Assembly (NCBI GenBank): GCA_937967805.1
Contig: CALBTC010000155.1
Location: 1-9,466 of the forward strand
Direction of reading: 5' to 3'
Length of the DNA: 9,466 nt
Origin: an uncultured Anaerolineaceae bacterium
Lineage (GTDB): Bacteria > Chloroflexota > Anaerolineae > Promineifilales > Promineifilaceae
Shown here in pieces: positions 1,658-9,466 of the stretch. Each line of letters starts with the position of its first letter. Position 1 is the stretch's first letter. Below the pieces are notes generated by a model. The model had not been told where the DNA came from and made no database searches. It was given only the letters and a program-made list of their open reading frames with translations. Made by a program: the position numbers and the translations under genes.

Positions 1658-1660
1658 TTA
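1642..1660. repeat. 19-nt direct repeat, right copy, overlapping the kinase stop codon
   Basis: GATTACCGCTCACCGATTA is the partner of 861-879. Together with a further GATTACCG unit it runs into the 3' end of the kinase gene on the other strand. The repeat family thus provides that gene's last codons (Gly-Asn-Arg) and its TAA stop (1658-1660). Confidence 0.7.
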
Positions 1661-3073
1661 CCGATTACCGTCCACCGGCAAGCGTACCTCAAAACGCGTC
1701 TCGCCAGGTTGGGAAGTGACGGTGAAACGGCCGTTATGCTTCTGCACCACAATATTGTAGGAAAGATTTAAACCCAGGCCGGTGCCCTGCCCCGGTGGCT
1801 TCGTCGTAAAAAACGGATCAAAAATTTTGGCCTGAATCCCCTCAGGAATGCCGGGTCCGTCATCGGTGACGGCCACCACCACCCATTCCCCTTCGCGATA
1901 GGTTTGTAAAATCAGCCTTCCCTGCCCGGACATCGCGTCGATGGCATTGTCGATCAGGTTGGTCCACACTTGGTTAAGTTCGCTGCCGTAGGCGTCCAGC
2001 AGCGGCACGTCGCTGCCGTAGTCGCGCACCACGTCTACGCCATTTTTCAATTTGTGACGCAAAATCGCCAGCGTACCGTCCAACCCTTCGTGAATATCCA
2101 CCTGCTGCGTCGGGGCCTGGTCCATGTACGAGTAAGATTTCAGCGCCTTGACGATTTCAGAAATACGGCCGCTCGCCTCGCTGATCTCCTGTGCCAACGC
2201 AAACAAGGCGTAAGTGGCGCTAATCCAGGCCACCACAGCCGAAAGCTGGGCCTGGCCAAACGTGGCTTCCAGCCGCCGCAGCGCCGTCTCATCGTATCCC
2301 AGCGCCACCAGTTCCGGCGCGTATTCCCAACAGTCGGCCACCTGCTGCGCTTCCAGCCACGCCTCAATTTCCTCCTGCCGGTCGCTGCGCGTCAGGCTGT
2401 CCAGGTTCAGCGGGTGAGCCGCCTGTTCGGCTGCCCGCTGCAAGAGTGACGTCAGCTGCGCCTCTTGCGCCGAAGACAGCCCATACATATCCAGGCCTAG
2501 CTGCGCTTTCTGCAAGCGACTGATTGCCGTCAACAAATAACTGGCGCTGCGCTGTACGGCCGCTGCCGGATTGTTCAATTCGTGGGCCACGCCGGCGCTC
2601 AGGCGACCCAGTGTGGCCAGCTTTTCCGACTGGCGCAGCCGCACCTCCTGCTGTAGATACACCTTTTCCAGATCGCGCAGCTTCTTTTTTTCCAGGCTGG
2701 TGTCCAGGCGGGCTTTCAGCAGCACCGGATCAAACGGCTTGGGCAAAAAATCCTCCGCGCCCATCTGGATGCAGCGCACGATGCTGTCCATCTCATCCAG
2801 CGCCGAAATGACGATGACCACAATATCGCGCCAGTCGGCGTTGGCCTTGATCTCGCGCAGCACCGCGTAGCCGTCCATCTCCGGCATGAGCAAATCGAGC
2901 AGCACGACATCAAACGGCCGTTCCGCCAACATCTCCAGCGCCAGACGGCCGTTTTCCACCACCGCCACCTTGTGCCCCTGCTGCTCCAACATGCGAGACA
3001 GCTTAATGCGGTTCATCCGGTTGTCATCTACGACCAAAATGTGTCCGTGAGAACGGGTTTCGTCAGTTGTCAT
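1658..3073 (-). CDS. Receiver-histidine kinase (REC-DHp-HATPase), soluble
   Basis: A 471-residue cytosolic protein with no membrane segment. Residues 10-125 are a response-regulator receiver with acidic pair D16/D17, phospho-acceptor D60 (LLDLLMPEMDG), Ser90 and K112 (LPKPF). A coiled linker (about 126-150) leads to the H-box GVAHELNNP with H164. The ATPase domain has the N-box (N372, N376), DDGPGIP (404-410), FDPFFTTK (418-425) and GTGLGL (430-435). The second dimerisation helix (SGRISEIVKALKSYSYMDQ, about 301-319) is some 135 residues after the histidine, against roughly 45 in a standard HisKA domain, so about 90-100 residues are inserted. The gene is last in the operon. Its ATG overlaps the stop of the hybrid kinase by 4 bases (3070-3073), with AGGA a few bases before it. 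From memory, kinases with this SYSYMDQAP region often neighbour REC-flavoprotein fusions, as here. Confidence 0.9.
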   Translation of the reverse strand: MTTDETRSHGHILVVDDNRMNRIKLSRMLEQQGHKVAVVENGRLALEMLAERPFDVVLLDLLMPEMDGYAVLREIKANADWRDIVVIVISALDEMDSIVRCIQMGAEDFLPKPFDPVLLKARLDTSLEKKKLRDLEKVYLQQEVRLRQSEKLATLGRLSAGVAHELNNPAAAVQRSASYLLTAISRLQKAQLGLDMYGLSSAQEAQLTSLLQRAAEQAAHPLNLDSLTRSDRQEEIEAWLEAQQVADCWEYAPELVALGYDETALRRLEATFGQAQLSAVVAWISATYALFALAQEISEASGRISEIVKALKSYSYMDQAPTQQVDIHEGLDGTLAILRHKLKNGVDVVRDYGSDVPLLDAYGSELNQVWTNLIDNAIDAMSGQGRLILQTYREGEWVVVAVTDDGPGIPEGIQAKIFDPFFTTKPPGQGTGLGLNLSYNIVVQKHNGRFTVTSQPGETRFEVRLPVDGNR

Positions 3074-6000
3074 GATCGGTCCTGTGCCCGTACCTGCTGC
3101 AAATAAGCAGCCACCTGTGCATACGCCTGGTTCATGTCGGCAACCAGTTCCGGCAGTTCAGCCAGATTTGCTTCTTTGGCCAACGCTTCTACTTGAATCG
3201 CCAATTCATGCAGGCGCGCCGCGCCAAAGTCAGCGGCGTTACTCTTCAGGCTGTGGGCGGCCAGATGGATTATTGGCGCGTCCGCAGCAGCCAGCCCCTG
3301 CTCAATTTTGGCTATCAACTGTGGCGCCTCGGCCAAAAAGCCGTCGATCAATTCATGCAGATATGCCGGCTCACCCCCCATCATCTCCTGTAATTGGGCC
3401 AGGGCTGCGGCATCAACGGCCGTCTCCACATCTGCAACCGGTTTATCTGACGAGTCCGCCTCAGCAAAACGCATCCCAACTTCGGCTGCCGATTGGGGCA
3501 AATTGGCCCTGTCTTGTGCCGCCCGTTCCAATGTTTCTATCAGCGCCTGCACCCGAACCGGTTTGGTCAGGAAATCATTCATCCCCGCTGCCTTGCAATT
3601 ATTGCGCTCCTCCATGAGTACATCCGCAGTGGTAGCCACCACATACGGTTGGGGCTGCTCCATCTGGCGAATGCGCCGCGTCGCTTCGATACCATCCATC
3701 ACCGGCATGTGTATGTCCATAAACACCACGTCGTATCGCTGCCGCTGAACGGCCGTTAACGCCTCCAACCCATTCGCCACCACATCAACCCGGTAGCCCA
3801 ACCGCTGTAATAGCCGCACGCCCAGCTTCTGGTTGGTGCTGTTATCGTCGGCCAGTAATATGCGCAGCGGCAGCCGTTGGGCCATCTGCGGATCAAACTC
3901 TGATTGGGGTACGGTCGTCTCAGGCTTGGGCAACGGCCGTTCCCCAAAAATGTGCAAAAGGGTCTCATAAAGCTGGGACGGTTTGACCGGCTTCGTCAAT
4001 GTGGCGGCAAAGTTCGCGTCCGCCACTGCCCGCTGTTCGCCGCTTAGACCGCCCAGCGAGGTAAGCAGCAGCAGCGGCAACGCTTTGCCCTGCTGAACGC
4101 TGCGCAATTCTTCGGCCAGCGTCAGCCCATCCATTTCCGGCATTTGCATGTCCAGAACGGCCGCGTCAAACGGCTTGTCGCGGCACAGTTCAACCAGCGC
4201 CTCCTGGCCACCGGCCACGGCACAGGTTGTCATGCCCCACGCCTCCGCCTGACGCTGCAAGATGCGCCGGTTGGTGGCATTGTCATCGACAATGAGCAAA
4301 TGGCGGCCGGCCAGGTGCGGCTGATCGTCCTGCAAAAAGGTGCGCGCCGGCCCGGCAGCCGCTTCCGCCTGGATGGTGAAGGTGAAGGTAGAGCCTTCTC
4401 CCATCCGGCTTTCCACCGTGATATCGCCGCCCATCAGTTGGGAGAGCCGCTTGCAAATGGCCAGCCCCAGCCCGGTACCGCCATAGGTGCGCGTCGTAGA
4501 CGCGTCCACCTGGCTAAAGGAGCGAAACAGCCGGTCCATGCGGTTAGCGGGAATGCCAATGCCCGTATCGCGCACGGCAAACGTGAGCGTGTAAGTTTTC
4601 GCCTCGGTGGGCAACGGTTCGGCGCTCACGGTTACAACCACCTCCCCCTGCTGGGTAAACTTGATGCCGTTACTCAGCAAATTGATCAGAATTTGGCGCA
4701 GGCGCGTCACGTCCCCCACGATCTGCTCCGGCGTTTCCGGGGCAATCGCATAAGCCAGGTCTAACCCCTTGTCGGCAGCGGGCACGGCCATCAGGTCCAG
4801 TGAGGCTTCAACGGCATCGTGCAGGTGGAACGGCCGTTTCTCCAGTTCCAACTGCCCCGCTTCTATCTTGGAAAAATCAAGAATATCGTTAATCAACAGG
4901 AGCAAAATTTCGCCGCTGTTGCGAATCGTCTCCGTAAATTCCCGCTGTTCGGCCGTTTGTGGGGTGTCCAGCAGCAGGCTGGTCATACCGATGACGGCAT
5001 TCATGGGGGTGCGAATTTCGTGGCTCATGGTGGCCAGGAAGGCGCTTTTGGCCTCATTGGCGGCTACGGCGGCAGCGCGGGCAGCGGCCGTTTCTTCGTA
5101 CAGCCGGGCATTGGTGATGGCAATCGAAGCCAGCCGCGTCAGGCGCTCCAAAATATGTAGATCGGCGGCATCAAAGGGGGCTTCCCCTGCGGGCCGCCAG
5201 ATCGACATGACGCCCATCACGCCGTCGCGCGACGTGAGGGGCGCTGCCATCAGCTTTTCCGCCTGCTGTGCCGCCGACACGTTGTGCAGCGTCACCCTCA
5301 GCGGGTCCATGGACGTGTCGGACACAATTTCGGCCTGACCAGACTGGGCCACGGAGCCGATGATGCCCTGCCCCACACGCGGCTGAAACGCCCGCACCTC
5401 ATCCGGAATCTGGCCGGAGCAGGCGGTCAGGCGCAGCGTTTGGCTTTCCGGCTGCACCAGGTAAATGGCGCAGTTGTTGGCCGCCAACAGCTCCCGGGCA
5501 TGGTCGGTAATGCGTCCCAGCAGCTTATTCAGATCGAGCGTGGCCAGGATATCGTTGCCAATTTCGGCCAGCGACGCCATCTCGGTGGCCTGCCGCCGCG
5601 TTTGGCGGAACAGCCGCATATTTTCGGCCAGCGTCTCATCCTTTTGGCGCAAAAAATGGTGCACCAGGGCAAATGCGGCCGTAAACGGACCAATGATGTT
5701 CATGGCAAAAAAGATGGCGCGGATGCCGGTTGCGCTCGCCCCCCGTTGGCTGACCCATGGTTCCAGCAAAACGCTGAGCAGCACCAGGGTCACAAAGGCC
5801 GCAAACCAACCGGTTGCCTGCCGGCGGCTGCTGACCAAAAGCGCCCCCAACGGAGCAATCAATGACCAAAGGATCGTCGCGCTGCCTTGAATGAGCCCGC
5901 CAAGCAGCAGCATCATAAAAAAAGGCAGCAGCAGGCTGGCGCAAAGCTGGATGAAGCGAAAGCGACGGAAGTGGCGCGTGCGGGCAAAAATCAGCACGTT

Positions 6001-6240
6001 CAGGAGTGAAACAATGCCATACCCAAACGGCGGCACCAGCGCCAGGGAGCCGGCATAATCGTAAAACAGAACGGCAAAGATGCCCCAGATGATTCCTGCC
6101 AGGCTCATTACGGTGGCAAAGAGCAGCACCACAGAGCGGCGCAGACGCATTTCGTCATTTTCACCAGGGGCAGCCCCGATGCGGCTCATCCTGCTGCGAA
6201 ATTGTGACAAAAGCCACCGCCACGCCCGGTAGAAATTCAT
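3070..6240 (-). CDS. Membrane hybrid histidine kinase: 6TM-GAF-HisKA-HATPase-REC-REC-HPt
   Basis: A 1056-residue sensor kinase. About six hydrophobic helices (near 35-60, 64-86, 96-117, 119-137, 143-160 and 172-197) form an integral membrane input with little outside loop. A helical linker leads to a GAF domain (about 226-380). HisKA has SHEIRTPMNAVIGM with H407. HATPase has N520/N524, DTGIGIP (558-564) and GGTGLGLAI (587-595). Receiver 1 has D652/D653, D697 (VLDMQMPEMDG), T727 and K750. Receiver 2 has D798/D799, D842 (FMDIHMPVMDG) and K893. The HPt domain at the end has H996 in HSLKSNAADFGA. All catalytic and phosphotransfer residues are present, so a complete His-Asp-His relay is possible within one chain. 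The start overlaps the upstream stop by one base (TGATG on the minus strand). The signal sensed is unknown; the membrane part resembles regions seen before cyclase or kinase domains in other bacteria (recollection only). Confidence 0.93.
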   Translation of the reverse strand: MNFYRAWRWLLSQFRSRMSRIGAAPGENDEMRLRRSVVLLFATVMSLAGIIWGIFAVLFYDYAGSLALVPPFGYGIVSLLNVLIFARTRHFRRFRFIQLCASLLLPFFMMLLLGGLIQGSATILWSLIAPLGALLVSSRRQATGWFAAFVTLVLLSVLLEPWVSQRGASATGIRAIFFAMNIIGPFTAAFALVHHFLRQKDETLAENMRLFRQTRRQATEMASLAEIGNDILATLDLNKLLGRITDHARELLAANNCAIYLVQPESQTLRLTACSGQIPDEVRAFQPRVGQGIIGSVAQSGQAEIVSDTSMDPLRVTLHNVSAAQQAEKLMAAPLTSRDGVMGVMSIWRPAGEAPFDAADLHILERLTRLASIAITNARLYEETAAARAAAVAANEAKSAFLATMSHEIRTPMNAVIGMTSLLLDTPQTAEQREFTETIRNSGEILLLLINDILDFSKIEAGQLELEKRPFHLHDAVEASLDLMAVPAADKGLDLAYAIAPETPEQIVGDVTRLRQILINLLSNGIKFTQQGEVVVTVSAEPLPTEAKTYTLTFAVRDTGIGIPANRMDRLFRSFSQVDASTTRTYGGTGLGLAICKRLSQLMGGDITVESRMGEGSTFTFTIQAEAAAGPARTFLQDDQPHLAGRHLLIVDDNATNRRILQRQAEAWGMTTCAVAGGQEALVELCRDKPFDAAVLDMQMPEMDGLTLAEELRSVQQGKALPLLLLTSLGGLSGEQRAVADANFAATLTKPVKPSQLYETLLHIFGERPLPKPETTVPQSEFDPQMAQRLPLRILLADDNSTNQKLGVRLLQRLGYRVDVVANGLEALTAVQRQRYDVVFMDIHMPVMDGIEATRRIRQMEQPQPYVVATTADVLMEERNNCKAAGMNDFLTKPVRVQALIETLERAAQDRANLPQSAAEVGMRFAEADSSDKPVADVETAVDAAALAQLQEMMGGEPAYLHELIDGFLAEAPQLIAKIEQGLAAADAPIIHLAAHSLKSNAADFGAARLHELAIQVEALAKEANLAELPELVADMNQAYAQVAAYLQQVRAQDRS

Positions 6241-7901
6241 CAGACGCTCTTTAAATATTGGTGTACCAGCCGCACAGCAATAGCCCCTTCACCCACGGCC
6301 GACGCGACGCGCCGGGTGGCCCCCTGGCGAATATCGCCCACGGCAAAAATGCCGGGCACGCTGGTTTCCAGATAGTAGGGATCGCGCTTTAACTTCCAGC
6401 CGGTGGGGTAACGGCCGTCTTTCTTCAGGTCAATCCCCGTGGGAATAAAGCCGGCATTGTTGCGCACCACAACGTCGGCCACCAAATCTGAATGGGGCAC
6501 CGCCCCAATGAACAAAAACAAGCCTTTGGCCGGAACCGTTTCCGCTTCTTCACTGTCCATGTGGCGTATGGTAATCGTTTCCAGCCGCTGCTCACCGCCA
6601 ACGGCAACCACCTGCGTGCGCAGCCGAACTTCAATATTATCCGTGGCCTCGATCTGGTCAACCAGGTAATGGGACATCCCCTTTTCTAAGGAACTGCTAC
6701 GTACCAACATGGTGACCTTATCAGCATAGCGCGAGAAAAACATCGCCCCCTGCCCGGCCGAGTTTGCCCCGCCAACTACAAAAACGTGTTCCCCCTTGTA
6801 ATGCGCCGCCTCTGTCATGGCGGCACCGTAATAGATGCCGGCCCCGGTCAACCGGTCCATGTCCGGCAAATTGAGCCGGCGCACGGTCACCCCGGTGGCC
6901 AGGATGATGGCGTGGCAGCTCAGTTCCGTGCCGTCATTCAGGCAAATAATACGGTAGGGGTCTTCCACGCGCACGCCTACAACTTCTTGCGTCGTCAGAA
7001 TCTCAGCGCCAAAGCGGGTGGCCTGAGCTGTTGCCCGGCGCGCCAGGTCTGCTCCGCTCAACCCCTTCGGGAAGCCCAAATAATTTTCAATCTTTGAGCT
7101 GGTACCGGCCTGACCGCCGGTGGCTTCCTTTTCAATCAGCGCCGTGCGCAGCCCTTCCGATGCGCCGTAAACGGCCGCTCCCAAACCACCCGGCCCCGCC
7201 CCCACAATGATCAAATCATAGAATGGCTGGCTCGCCTGGGTTTGCAGCCCCACCTTTTCCGCCAGGGTGCGGTTGTCGGGGTTCACAAGCTGGCTGCCGT
7301 CGGGAAAGTACACCACAGGCAGGATGAGCGGATCATCACCCGAGGCGGCCACGAGTGCGGCCGTTTCCGTATCCGTCTCAATATCCAGCCACTGGTAGGG
7401 AATGCGGTTGCGCGACAAAAAATCTTTTACGCGATGGGAACCCGGCGACCAGAGCGTGCCCGCCACGCGAATGCCGTCGTAAGGCACGGGCACGGTAGCC
7501 CACCAATCGCTCAGCAAATCGTCCAGAATGGGGTAAAGATGCTGCTCCGGCGGGTGCCACGGTTTCATCAGATAGTAGTCCAGGTCAATTTCATTAATGC
7601 TGGCAATGGCTGCCTGAGTATCTGCGTAGGCGGTGAGCAGCACTTTGCGCGCCTGCGGGTAAAAGTTTAGGGCCTCCGCCAAAAACGCCGTCCCCTCCAT
7701 TTGCGGCATTCGCTGGTCTACCAAAAAGAGGGCCACCGGATCGTTGCGCGCTTTGAGCCGGCGCACGGTTTCCAACGCCTCCTGCCCTGAACCGGCCTTC
7801 AAGATGCGGTAGTCGTGGCGATACTGCTGGCGCAAATCTCGCTCAATGGCGTTCAGCACCTGCGGTTCGTCATCAATGGTGAAGATAACAGGCTTGGACA
7901 T
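6240..7901 (-). CDS. Response regulator fused to glutaredoxin-like and thioredoxin-reductase-like FAD oxidoreductase
   Basis: A 553-residue protein. The receiver (about 4-125) has D10/D11, phospho-acceptor D62 (LVDQRMPQMEG), T90 (LLTAYAD) and K113 (MKPW). Residues about 142-218 look glutaredoxin-like (GTLWSPGSHRVKDFL, then PVVYFPDG) but have Ser-Pro-Gly-Ser where redox cysteines would sit. From 228 on it is a pyridine-nucleotide-disulfide-reductase-like flavoprotein. It has the FAD motif GAGPGGLGAA (234-243), ATG (335-337), the NAD(P)H motif GGANSAGQGA (377-386) and the C-terminal FAD motif GIFAVGDIR (517-525). The CATC site of thioredoxin reductases is replaced by IYYGAAMTEA (356-365). The only cysteines are C320 and C329, so a thiol-reductase activity is not expected. 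A longer reading frame opens at 7979, but AGGAG lies 7 bases before the ATG at 7901 and the receiver fold begins there, so 7901 is chosen. It is the first gene of the operon. The family is commonly labelled fused response regulator/thioredoxin-disulfide reductase. Confidence 0.9.
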   Translation of the reverse strand: MSKPVIFTIDDEPQVLNAIERDLRQQYRHDYRILKAGSGQEALETVRRLKARNDPVALFLVDQRMPQMEGTAFLAEALNFYPQARKVLLTAYADTQAAIASINEIDLDYYLMKPWHPPEQHLYPILDDLLSDWWATVPVPYDGIRVAGTLWSPGSHRVKDFLSRNRIPYQWLDIETDTETAALVAASGDDPLILPVVYFPDGSQLVNPDNRTLAEKVGLQTQASQPFYDLIIVGAGPGGLGAAVYGASEGLRTALIEKEATGGQAGTSSKIENYLGFPKGLSGADLARRATAQATRFGAEILTTQEVVGVRVEDPYRIICLNDGTELSCHAIILATGVTVRRLNLPDMDRLTGAGIYYGAAMTEAAHYKGEHVFVVGGANSAGQGAMFFSRYADKVTMLVRSSSLEKGMSHYLVDQIEATDNIEVRLRTQVVAVGGEQRLETITIRHMDSEEAETVPAKGLFLFIGAVPHSDLVADVVVRNNAGFIPTGIDLKKDGRYPTGWKLKRDPYYLETSVPGIFAVGDIRQGATRRVASAVGEGAIAVRLVHQYLKSV

Positions 7902-8077: not shown

Positions 8078-8965
8078 ATGCAAATTGATTCCATCGACCA
8101 ACTACAAGAAGCCCTGCACGGCCGTAACTATGTAGCGGACCGGGGATTGGCAACGGCCGCTTTTCTGGCGCTGAAACTACAAAGACCGCTCTTTTTAGAG
8201 GGCGAACCCGGCGTGGGCAAGACGGAAATTGCTAAGGTTATCGCCAATTTGCTGGGCACCGAGCTTATCCGCCTGCAATGCTATGAAGGATTAGACGTGA
8301 ACCAGGCGGTGTACGAGTGGAACTACACCCGTCAGATGCTGCACATTCGCCTGCTGGAATCACGCGGCGAGCGGGCCAGTGAATCAGAGCTGTTCGGCAA
8401 GGAATATTTGTTGGAACGGCCGCTGCTCCAGGCCATCGAGCGCAGCAAAAACCACCGTCCCGTCCTGCTTATCGACGAGATCGACCGCAGCGACGAGGAG
8501 TTTGAAGCATTTCTGCTGGAAATATTGTCCGACTTCCAGATCACCATCCCGGAAATTGGCACCATCAAAGCCGCTCAGCCACCTGTGGTTGTGCTCACCT
8601 CCAACCGCACCCGCGAAGTCCACGACGCACTCAAGCGGCGCTGCCTCTACTACTGGATCGACTATCCCAGCTTTGAAAAAGAGTACAACATCGTCCGCGC
8701 CAAGCAGCCCCAGGCCGCCGCCCAACTGGCGGAGCAGGTTACCCACTTCATCCAGGAGCTGCGCCAGCAAGACCTGTACAAAATCCCCGGCGTGGCTGAA
8801 ACACTGGACTGGACGGCTGCGCTGGTGGCCCTGGACGCCCAGGCGCTCAGCGTGGAAATTGTAGAAAACACCATCGGCGTCATCCTCAAATACCAGGACG
8901 ACATCGAGAAAATCAACGGCGAAACGGCCCGGCACATTTTGGACCGGGTTCGGGCCAATGCGTAA
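8078..8965 (+). CDS. MoxR-family AAA+ ATPase (CoxD-like)
   Basis: A 295-residue cytosolic AAA+ ATPase. Walker A is GEPGVGKT (42-49), Walker B VLLIDE (129-134, D133/E134), sensor 1 N176 in VVLTSNRTRE, with arginine-finger candidates R187/R188. The stretch IRLQCYEGLD followed by AVYEWNY is typical of the MoxR branch that includes CoxD, which acts in maturing aerobic CO dehydrogenase. In that branch the ATPase works with a VWA-domain protein (CoxE-like) to remodel or insert metal into a client. The start of such a partner follows 102 bases later, supporting this role. No CO-dehydrogenase or other client gene is visible, so the client is unknown. Three CGGCCG copies in this gene fall in three different codon phases. 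Confidence 0.9.
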   Translation: MQIDSIDQLQEALHGRNYVADRGLATAAFLALKLQRPLFLEGEPGVGKTEIAKVIANLLGTELIRLQCYEGLDVNQAVYEWNYTRQMLHIRLLESRGERASESELFGKEYLLERPLLQAIERSKNHRPVLLIDEIDRSDEEFEAFLLEILSDFQITIPEIGTIKAAQPPVVVLTSNRTREVHDALKRRCLYYWIDYPSFEKEYNIVRAKQPQAAAQLAEQVTHFIQELRQQDLYKIPGVAETLDWTAALVALDAQALSVEIVENTIGVILKYQDDIEKINGETARHILDRVRANA

Positions 8966-8976
8966 TTGGACAGCTT

Positions 8977-9034
8977 GTCACTCCCGCGCAGGCGGGAGTC
9001 CAGGTGTATGGATTCCCGCCAACGCGGGAATAAC
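8977..9034. repeat. dRS3-like pair of inverted hairpin repeats
   Basis: Two 26-nt arms (8977-9002 and 9009-9034) are inverted copies of each other with 5 mismatches, and each arm is itself a hairpin. Arm 1 has ACTCCCGC (8980-8987) pairing with GCGGGAGT (8992-8999). Arm 2 has ATTCCCGC (9012-9019) pairing with GCGGGAAT (9024-9031). Arm 2 fits ATTCCC-N8-GGGAAT exactly, the form of the dRS3 repeats known from Neisseria; similar repeats occur in many bacteria. It fills most of the gap between two genes that probably work together and could attenuate transcription or stabilise RNA there. Confidence 0.8.
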
Positions 9035-9067
9035 AGATAAAGTTCAATTGCAAGCGACAAACCACCT

Positions 9068-9466
9068 GTGACAGACCACTTCCTCCTACACAACCTGATT
9101 TTATTCGGCCGTTTGCTGCGCGCTCTGGGCCTGGACATCAACCCCGGCCGCATGATCGATCTGGTGCAGGCGCTGGACCACGTCAACCTGGCGCGCAAAT
9201 CCGATTTTTACTTCACCGCCCGCAGCCTGCTGGTGCACGACCGGGAAGATCTGCCTCTGTTCGACCAGGCGTTTGAGCTGTTCTGGCGCGCTCCGCGGGA
9301 GAAAACGCTGTTTTCCGAACTGTTTCAGTCTGGCATGGAAAAGTCACGGGACGAACCCCTTGTCACCGCAGGCGACCTGGAAAAGCTGGGACAAGAAAGT
9401 GGTGACGGTGGTGAAGAAGGCGATGATGACGGAGTGCAGGAGATCACCGAAATTACGCGCACCTAC
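9068..9466 (+). CDS. CoxE-like VWA-family protein, N-terminal part, cut by window end
   Basis: 133 residues are visible, starting at GTG 9068; the upstream in-frame stop is at 9038-9040 and no ATG lies between. The N-terminus (LHNLILFGRLLRALGLDINPGR, broken here as LHNLILFGRL then LRALGLDINPGR) and the later REDLPLFDQAFELFW segment match, from memory, the N-terminal region of CoxE-like proteins, which carry a C-terminal von Willebrand A domain. That domain and its metal-binding DxSxS motif lie outside the window. An acidic Gly/Asp/Glu-rich linker (about residues 113-125) follows, as is common before VWA domains. No convincing Shine-Dalgarno precedes the GTG, so the start is less certain than the identity. 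Its place after the MoxR ATPase fits the usual ATPase-VWA pair. Confidence 0.78.
   Translation, partial: MTDHFLLHNLILFGRLLRALGLDINPGRMIDLVQALDHVNLARKSDFYFTARSLLVHDREDLPLFDQAFELFWRAPREKTLFSELFQSGMEKSRDEPLVTAGDLEKLGQESGDGGEEGDDDGVQEITEITRTY

Follow-up and report, generated by a model that had tools for sequence, protein, structure and literature searches.

By what route does phosphate travel through an operon in which two histidine kinases share a single flavoprotein as their visible output, and what can such an output do? The question is raised by a 9,466-nucleotide contig of an uncultured Anaerolineaceae bacterium (GenBank assembly GCA_937967805.1, contig CALBTC010000155.1; the whole of this stretch is called the window), on which three overlapping genes encode a flavoprotein with an N-terminal receiver (FP), a six-transmembrane hybrid histidine kinase ending in a histidine phosphotransfer (HPt) domain (HY), and a second histidine kinase controlled by a receiver of its own (RK). 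The operon probably works as a three-tier His-Asp cascade, in which HY feeds the receiver of RK and RK then acts on FP. The order is proposed because HPt genes covary with the receiver of RK, because HY and RK stay together as a unit while FP has moved, and because RK resembles LvrB, a Rec-controlled kinase of Leptospira.

A sequence-only reading of the window had described three overlapping genes with named phosphoacceptors, and the open reading frames, Pfam searches and a residue check bear this out. FP and HY share 1 base (6240), HY and RK share 4 (3070-3073), FP starts at the ATG at 7901, preceded by AGGAG, and the numbering is correct for RK (H164, D60), HY (H407, D697, D842, H996) and FP (D62). 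The Asp pair, phospho-Asp, Ser/Thr and Lys are intact in all four receivers (FP, RK and both of HY). By Pfam, HY is composed of GAF, HisKA, HATPase_c, two Response_reg and Hpt domains behind a sub-threshold MASE6-like N-terminus, and it has all the domains of a tripartite hybrid kinase with HPt, complete with their His and Asp residues. The same reading had found no DNA-binding, GGDEF, EAL, HD-GYP or cyclase domain, and Pfam (E up to 0.1) likewise gives no HTH, GGDEF, EAL, HD-GYP or cyclase match in FP, HY or RK; a DNA-binding regulator within the operon is thus ruled out, on a contig that stops at 9466, and the claim that the receiver-bearing flavoprotein is the only output of the phosphorelay is supported.

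With an N-terminal receiver that has a complete pocket and a C-terminal FAD/NAD(P)H domain of the thioredoxin reductase (TrxR) type, FP has the build of the REC-TrxB regulators; Pfam reports Response_reg (48.5 bits), a weak Glutaredoxin match and Pyr_redox_2. Both dithiol centres that would accompany such an architecture are lost. FP falls below the cut-off for thioredoxin-disulfide reductases (TIGR01292, 232.5 against 343.45 bits) and has YYGAAMTEA at residues 357-365 in place of a redox-active CxxC in the NADPH domain, and its glutaredoxin-like domain, below the glutaredoxin and mycoredoxin cut-offs (TIGR02200, 43.3 against 89.5 bits; PF00462, 15.6 against 22.9 bits), has WSPGS instead of a CxxC or any Cys at the start of helix 1. 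Across the window and 80 further loci the TrxR site is YYGA[A/S] in 81 of 81 sequences, and the glutaredoxin-like site, W-S-x-x-S-H, keeps S152 in 79 and S155 in 75 of the 81. In an extended set (159 distinct sequences from 173 rows, some of them duplicates) both CxxC motifs are absent from all 137 distinct relatives that bear a receiver with the D..MP motif, and neither is present in a further 12 with a truncated, degenerate or other N-terminus; both (WCxDC and CATC) are kept in all ten relatives without the receiver motif, every one from Chloroflexota, and Pfam, run on 2 of those ten, found no receiver. Because both centres are gone, as in all receiver-bearing relatives checked, it is very improbable that FP works as a disulfide reductase.

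The sequence-only reading had suggested that phosphorylation gates a redox enzyme, having missed both the absence of CxxC from the TrxR-like part and the insert in the phosphoacceptor domain of RK. The flavin half of that suggestion stands, the TrxR fold being kept together with the FAD motif (156/159) and the NAD(P)H motif (148/159 distinct relatives, by simple patterns); the dithiol half falls with the two missing centres. That an enzyme of the thioredoxin reductase type is what phosphorylation gates is therefore hardly credible, its fold and cofactor motifs being set against a dithiol loss that is uniform wherever the receiver is present, and FP was rejected as a thioredoxin reductase for want of the CxxC. 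FP relatives are numerous (at least 8000 candidates at E up to 1e-10); among the matches listed, the closest named ones are from Chloroflexota (Anaerolineae, Caldilineaceae), which makes this phylum the most likely source of the contig. The names given within the best 120 are 'thioredoxin reductase (NADPH)' (JGI) and 'FAD-dependent oxidoreductase' (NCBI); for this clade the former is in all likelihood a misnomer.

The AlphaFold2 (AF2) model of FP (mean pLDDT 87) fits the FR conformation of Lactococcus TrxR (5mh4; TM-score 0.90 by target) better than the FO conformation (5mjk; 0.62). The FR conformation of TrxR is the flavin-reducing state, and the predicted model would thus suit a protein whose flavin senses NAD(P)H and which has no dithiol to serve. 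In three proteins (L108, L109, L224) a Pfam cNMP_binding domain stands in the receiver's place ahead of a Cys-less glutaredoxin-TrxR part, and these represent a parallel control of the same flavin domain. A 943-residue frame at L282 (3447-6275), upstream of an insert kinase of the cyclic-nucleotide-binding type, fuses an AAA-TPR part to a truncated FP-like domain, either by natural deletion or through a chimeric assembly.

RK has the Rec-controlled kinase order REC-DHp-CA (DHp, dimerization and histidine phosphotransfer), an intact input receiver and a fixed Asp-His spacing, which is 104 residues in 9 of 9 receiver-only kinases of its type, RK (D60-H164) among them, and its best fold match is LvrB. 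Pfam recognises Response_reg, HATPase_c and a partial HisKA (17.8 bits, positions 2-29 of a 66-position profile, below the cut-off). In kinases of this type the DHp hairpin is not the ordinary two-helix one and carries a helical insert of about 100 residues: the distance from the phospho-His to the motif of the second DHp helix is 141-150 residues in 52 kinases from FP loci versus 43 in HY, and in the AF2 model of RK four helices at about residues 201-272 (block pLDDT 94-98) are predicted between two long DHp helices. For the insert taken alone, neither the Pfam families nor the PDB sequences gave a match; its consensus carries the signature LxRSDRE...WL...W..AP.LV.

This RK type of insert kinase is the standing partner of FP, almost one to one, in agreement with the earlier view that a flavoprotein with one kinase is the familiar core pair. 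Among 201 Chloroflexota genomes the insert kinase is present in 16 of the 17 with a receiver-bearing FP (REC-FP; 15 whole, 2 cut by contig ends) and in 0 of the 184 without (Fisher p 9e-23); 12 of the 16 kinases gave nearly full-length matches, 3 matched only from a point within the insert onward and 1 (G002) in two pieces. The corresponding figures are 27/28 versus 5/270 (p 3e-32) in 298 genomes of one class, a sample that overlaps that of the phylum, and 24/24 versus 3/174 (p 6e-28) in 198 Actinomycetota, where 2 of the 24 kinases are fragments, the one in G662 lying at a contig end and stopping short of the insert. No insert kinase was found in 14 Actinomycetota genomes having only divergent FP relatives (38-47% identity). 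In 60 of 80 loci an open reading frame for the insert kinase is found no more than 3.5 kb from FP. The fixed stoichiometry that had been read from the gene overlaps is not supported, since FP and the kinase are within a few kb on one contig in 18 of the 27 class genomes having both and not near in the other 9, some of these owing to contig ends.

The cut-offs for REC-FP and for the insert kinase were set at the gap in the score tables, after the scores had been seen: the insert kinases of ten genomes score at least 416 bits and one split gene 262 + 238, the rest reaching at most 134 bits over the generic part only, and in Actinomycetota REC-FP orthologues were taken at 526 bits or more. Matches covering only positions about 151-332 were treated as generic kinases, and G039, G252, G302, G321, G423 and G383 were not counted as having insert kinases. 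G045, G026 and G620 were counted as having FP despite a contig-end cut or break, and G031, G050, G093, G002, G620 and G662 as having insert kinases though these are partial; equally partial kinases in G630 and G608 are counted among the genomes without FP, and G171 (N-terminus not seen) and G631 (divergent) as lacking REC-FP. The best 4 to 10 candidates were scored in each genome, so that a miss is not proof of absence. Domain labels of relatives come mostly from script-run profiles or BLAST, with Pfam run on a subset of the proteins.

The inputs of the insert kinases indicate where HY belongs. By script profiles, 114 of 136 distinct insert kinases have a cyclic-nucleotide-binding input, 9 a receiver only and 7 a receiver with PAS, the other 6 being truncated or unassigned; Pfam agrees on the class where it was run (4 cyclic-nucleotide-binding, 1 REC-PAS-PAS and 2 receiver-only kinases). 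Of the 9 receiver-only kinases, 7 have an HPt gene no more than 1.5 kb away, against 0 of the 127 others (p 2e-10), and a longer stretch of G102 brings the former to 8 of 9. The receiver pocket is complete in all nine receiver-only kinases and damaged, with at least one residue lost, in 6 of the 7 REC-PAS-PAS insert kinases, for none of which was an HPt neighbour found. Four Chloroflexota kinases of the cyclic-nucleotide-binding type (L009, L011, L013, L017) have a longer C-terminus, a CoA-binding domain by Pfam in L009 and alike by sequence in the other three.

The hybrid kinase had been seen as inserted between the flavoprotein and its kinase; what is constant, in 8 loci with the window included, is a same-strand pair with HY upstream of RK, and it is FP that lies before, after, convergent or far. 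The order is HY-RK-FP in L001 (with a small open reading frame between HY and RK), L005, L010 and L024; the window has FP-HY-RK, as does G008 across two contigs (L035, L186); HY-RK is convergent with FP in G102 and far from it in G002 (L279). HY orthologues at these loci share 50-64% identity across the core or the available part of it, and generic hybrids reach at most 36%. HY thus goes with RK and not with FP, and HY as a general partner of FP was rejected, since just 4 of 80 loci were found to have an HPt gene no further than 3.5 kb from FP (in a fifth, L035, HY is cut by the contig end). In G002 the gene for the insert kinase is split, with about 187 kb between its two parts (C1:477397-477801 and 664351-664944; L280, L279), one beside FP and the other beside the HPt hybrid kinase, which reflects either a rearrangement or a misassembly.

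These data also bear on the proposal that the HPt domain could serve either receiver, of which the part concerning RK is favoured by the covariation and the part concerning FP is not. A relay that converges on FP, with the HPt domain phosphorylating D62 directly, RK phosphorylating or dephosphorylating the same residue independently and the receiver of RK tuning RK in some other way, would suit two intact receivers and three genes that all overlap; it is nevertheless unlikely, given that HPt genes track the receiver of RK, that so few FP loci have one nearby and that HY remains beside RK where FP is elsewhere (G002, L279).

A second line of evidence is provided by the sensor of HY. A hydropathy scan places about six membrane segments at residues 37-193, and the six-transmembrane module, a sub-threshold MASE6 match (22.5 against 27.4 bits), is also found on the HY proteins of L035, L005 and L278 and on class III cyclases of 404-426 residues in L029, L032 and L178, which lie within about 5 kb of FP and beside an insert kinase of the cyclic-nucleotide-binding type. 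The module occurs in 18 of the 298 class genomes, 15 of the 28 with FP versus 3 of the 270 others (p 4e-15), and its 22 copies comprise 19 cyclase fusions and 3 hybrid kinases. In the 12 FP genomes with a six-transmembrane cyclase and an insert kinase, the kinase viewed is of the cyclic-nucleotide-binding type in all 12; where the sensor is on HY (G003, G008), the kinase beside HY has a receiver in both. Cyclase sensors thus pair with cyclic-nucleotide-binding kinases and HPt sensors with receiver kinases; in relatives, a sensor of this kind would seem to act on this kinase-flavoprotein pair by way of a cyclic nucleotide. Most six-transmembrane cyclases are not adjacent to FP, and by Pfam the HY proteins of L010 and L024 carry a pair of GAF domains without a six-transmembrane part, that of L001 being alike by sequence. 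Large soluble proteins of a cyclase-ATPase type (about 1200 residues, with a zinc-ribbon-like start), identified by eye and with a profile built from L013, end just before FP in L013, L017, L018, L022 and L034.

What the analysis establishes is the set of domains and residues, the loss of both dithiols, the joint occurrence of insert kinase and FP, the covariation of HPt genes with the receiver of RK and the link through the sensor module. Each phosphotransfer step in the following course is inferred, and so are the direction of control and the reaction at its end. The six-transmembrane and GAF part of HY would control autophosphorylation at H407, and phosphate would pass to D697 and/or D842 and on to H996 of the HPt domain, which would phosphorylate D60 of RK much as the kinase LvrA feeds LvrB. 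Phosphorylated D60 may then switch the autokinase activity at H164, after which RK would phosphorylate, or dephosphorylate, D62 of FP, a relative of glutaredoxin-thioredoxin reductase fusions that is free of their active-site cysteines; this would change NAD(P)H oxidation by the FAD/NAD(P)H domain or the docking of a partner, and not thiol exchange. In another reading FP is a sensor or phosphate sink: the state of its flavin would inform RK about NAD(P)H, by way of the receiver or the DHp insert, and the real output would be an unlinked regulator. A flavoprotein with no catalytic thiols, an insert that tracks FP and FP genes that in some loci stand behind another response regulator would all suit such a sensor; we nonetheless consider it improbable, since the phosphorylation pocket is complete in 135 of the 137 distinct receiver-bearing forms, as expected of a phosphorylated output, and no second regulator common to the loci was noticed in the neighbourhood tables, of which no count was made. 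Beyond the cascade itself, a broader proposal is advanced as a serious possibility that falls somewhat short of being probable: one sensor module and one kinase-flavoprotein pair would be wired in two interchangeable ways, by a cyclase with a cyclic-nucleotide-binding kinase or by an HPt phosphorelay with a receiver-controlled kinase, and the insert kinases would be a distinct class whose extra helical DHp domain serves to dock or read out a flavin switch without cysteines that reports or alters the NAD(P)H/flavin state without thiol chemistry.

Several observations weigh against the cascade from HY through RK to FP, or against the breadth of its support. On the tree the receiver-only kinases arose just once or twice, and their HPt association consequently rests on few evolutionary events; for one of them, in G392, the 19-kb contig carries no HPt gene, many of the 127 kinases that lack an HPt neighbour were viewed with a 1.5 kb flank only, and G008 carries a second insert kinase, of the cyclic-nucleotide-binding type. 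The Cys-bearing FP relatives form a single clade on a tree of the TrxR domain from which the CxxC columns were left out; dithiol loss is therefore one evolutionary split, which again means few independent events. FP occurs without a detected insert kinase in G091 (Chloroflexota sample) and G398 (class sample), and the insert kinase without FP in the five class and three Actinomycetota genomes counted above. In L007, L012, L180 and L182 FP is directly downstream of another response regulator, and the insert kinase lies either on a different contig or, in the genome of L182, about 420 kb away. Co-variation between FP and RK, sought as mutual information over 86 pairs with 20 shuffles, gave nothing above shuffled pairings, and the inter-domain arrangement in the AF2 model of RK is uncertain (pTM 0.56).

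Where it could be identified, the regulator before FP in such Chloroflexota loci is of the LuxR/NarL type: Pfam makes it REC-GerE in L182, those of L007 and L012 look NarL-like by eye, and that of L180 is unclassified. A GAF-bearing gene precedes the arrangement in L007, L012 and L180. Other genes within 3.5 kb of FP in the 80 loci, by script profiles with contig ends not excluded, are a UBP-type zinc finger in 12 (L008 7481-7936 by Pfam and 11 other loci by profile), a cyclase in 9 and a glyoxalase-like gene in 16, all of the last cyanobacterial and named by eye. In the window itself the operon is flanked on the plus strand by the 3' part of a tryptophanase-family gene (1-804), by a ResA/TlpA-like thiol oxidoreductase with WCPPC convergent with RK (979-1590) and, divergent from the operon (8078-9466), by an AAA ATPase that is MadB-like below the cut-off, followed by the start of a MadC-like VWA protein (a weak match). 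A scan of the window for promoters and terminators gave no more sites than shuffled sequence. The features of the operon are collected in the table.

Table. Genes, domains and sites of the FP-HY-RK operon, in window positions.
Feature	Positions	Strand	Remarks
FP, REC-glutaredoxin-like-TrxR-like flavoprotein	6240..7901	minus	553 aa
FP receiver, residues 1-130, phospho-acceptor D62	7512..7901	minus	Pfam Response_reg
FP residues 151-155, WSPGS	7437..7451	minus	WCxDC in Cys-containing relatives
FP TrxR-like FAD/NAD(P)H domain, residues 224-553	6243..7232	minus	Pfam Pyr_redox_2
FP residues 357-361, YYGAA	6819..6833	minus	CATC in Cys-containing relatives
HY, six-transmembrane-GAF-HisKA-HATPase-REC-REC-HPt hybrid kinase	3070..6240	minus	1056 aa
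HY six-transmembrane sensor module, residues 12-216	5593..6207	minus	module common to class III cyclase fusions
HY HisKA-HATPase core, H407	4366..5052	minus	Pfam
HY receiver 1, D697 (approximate limits)	3961..4290	minus	
HY receiver 2, D842	3529..3861	minus	
HY HPt domain, H996	3088..3354	minus	
RK, REC-controlled histidine kinase with DHp insert	1658..3073	minus	471 aa
RK receiver, D60	2705..3040	minus	Pfam Response_reg
RK DHp helix 1, about residues 150-195, carries H164	2489..2626	minus	
RK helical insert between DHp helices, residues 196-273	2255..2488	minus	
RK DHp helix 2, about residues 274-319	2117..2254	minus	
RK HATPase_c domain	1670..1981	minus	Pfam

REC-TrxB regulators as a class, and receiver-controlled kinases under hybrid kinases, are already known. 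In a literature search directed at the flavoprotein family, the DHp insert and the cyclic-nucleotide link, which left subscription papers mostly outside, the titles and abstract openings listed gave no experimental study of REC-TrxB proteins, no mention of the DHp insert, and no description of the uniform dithiol loss, the insert kinase or the interchange of second messenger and phosphorelay. The present analysis supplies a likely kinase partner for the numerous FP relatives together with a subclass of kinases not charted before, and it points to what looks like a natural exchange of a second messenger for a phosphorelay ahead of one and the same output.

Each of the three proteins has recognisable counterparts. 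HY shares the HisKA-HATPase-REC-(REC)-HPt order of hybrids of the BarA, ArcB and TorS type and differs from them in falling below the cut-off for 25 NCBIfam families (among the matches listed), in its six-transmembrane module common to cyclases and in having no DNA-binding partner in the operon. AhpF consists of a thioredoxin-fold N-terminus and a TrxR; it and the bacterial thioredoxin reductases are among the best sequence and fold matches of FP, which like AhpF has a thioredoxin-fold domain ahead of a TrxR-type FAD/NAD(P)H domain and unlike all of them has no dithiol in either domain and a receiver in front. In the TrxR-type ferredoxin-NADP reductases, which keep the fold of TrxR but lack CxxC, the flavin passes its electrons on directly; these have no receiver and are also among the sequence matches of FP, more weakly than true TrxR (at most 70.1 versus 162.1 bits). 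FP is filed here with the REC-TrxB regulators, represented by a 'Mycobacterium-like' REC-thioredoxin reductase (PMC5847659) and the TrxB row of a table of response regulators (PMC9953108), with which it shares a receiver fused to a pyridine nucleotide-disulfide oxidoreductase domain; the excerpts of these two accounts, unlike the present analysis, carry no mention of a glutaredoxin-like middle domain, of CxxC loss or of a kinase with a DHp insert. The pair HY-RK most resembles LvrA-LvrB (PDB 8vc9), in which the Leptospira hybrid kinase LvrA phosphorylates the receiver of the Rec-controlled kinase LvrB and thereby activates it (PMC13269768), so that an upstream kinase feeds the receiver of a REC-DHp-CA kinase with an Asp-His spacing of 105 (D56, H161), against 104 in RK. 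At about 380 residues the LvrB chain would leave no room for the DHp insert, and the output of LvrB is LvrC, a putative anti-sigma factor (PMC13269768), where the output proposed for RK is a flavoprotein.

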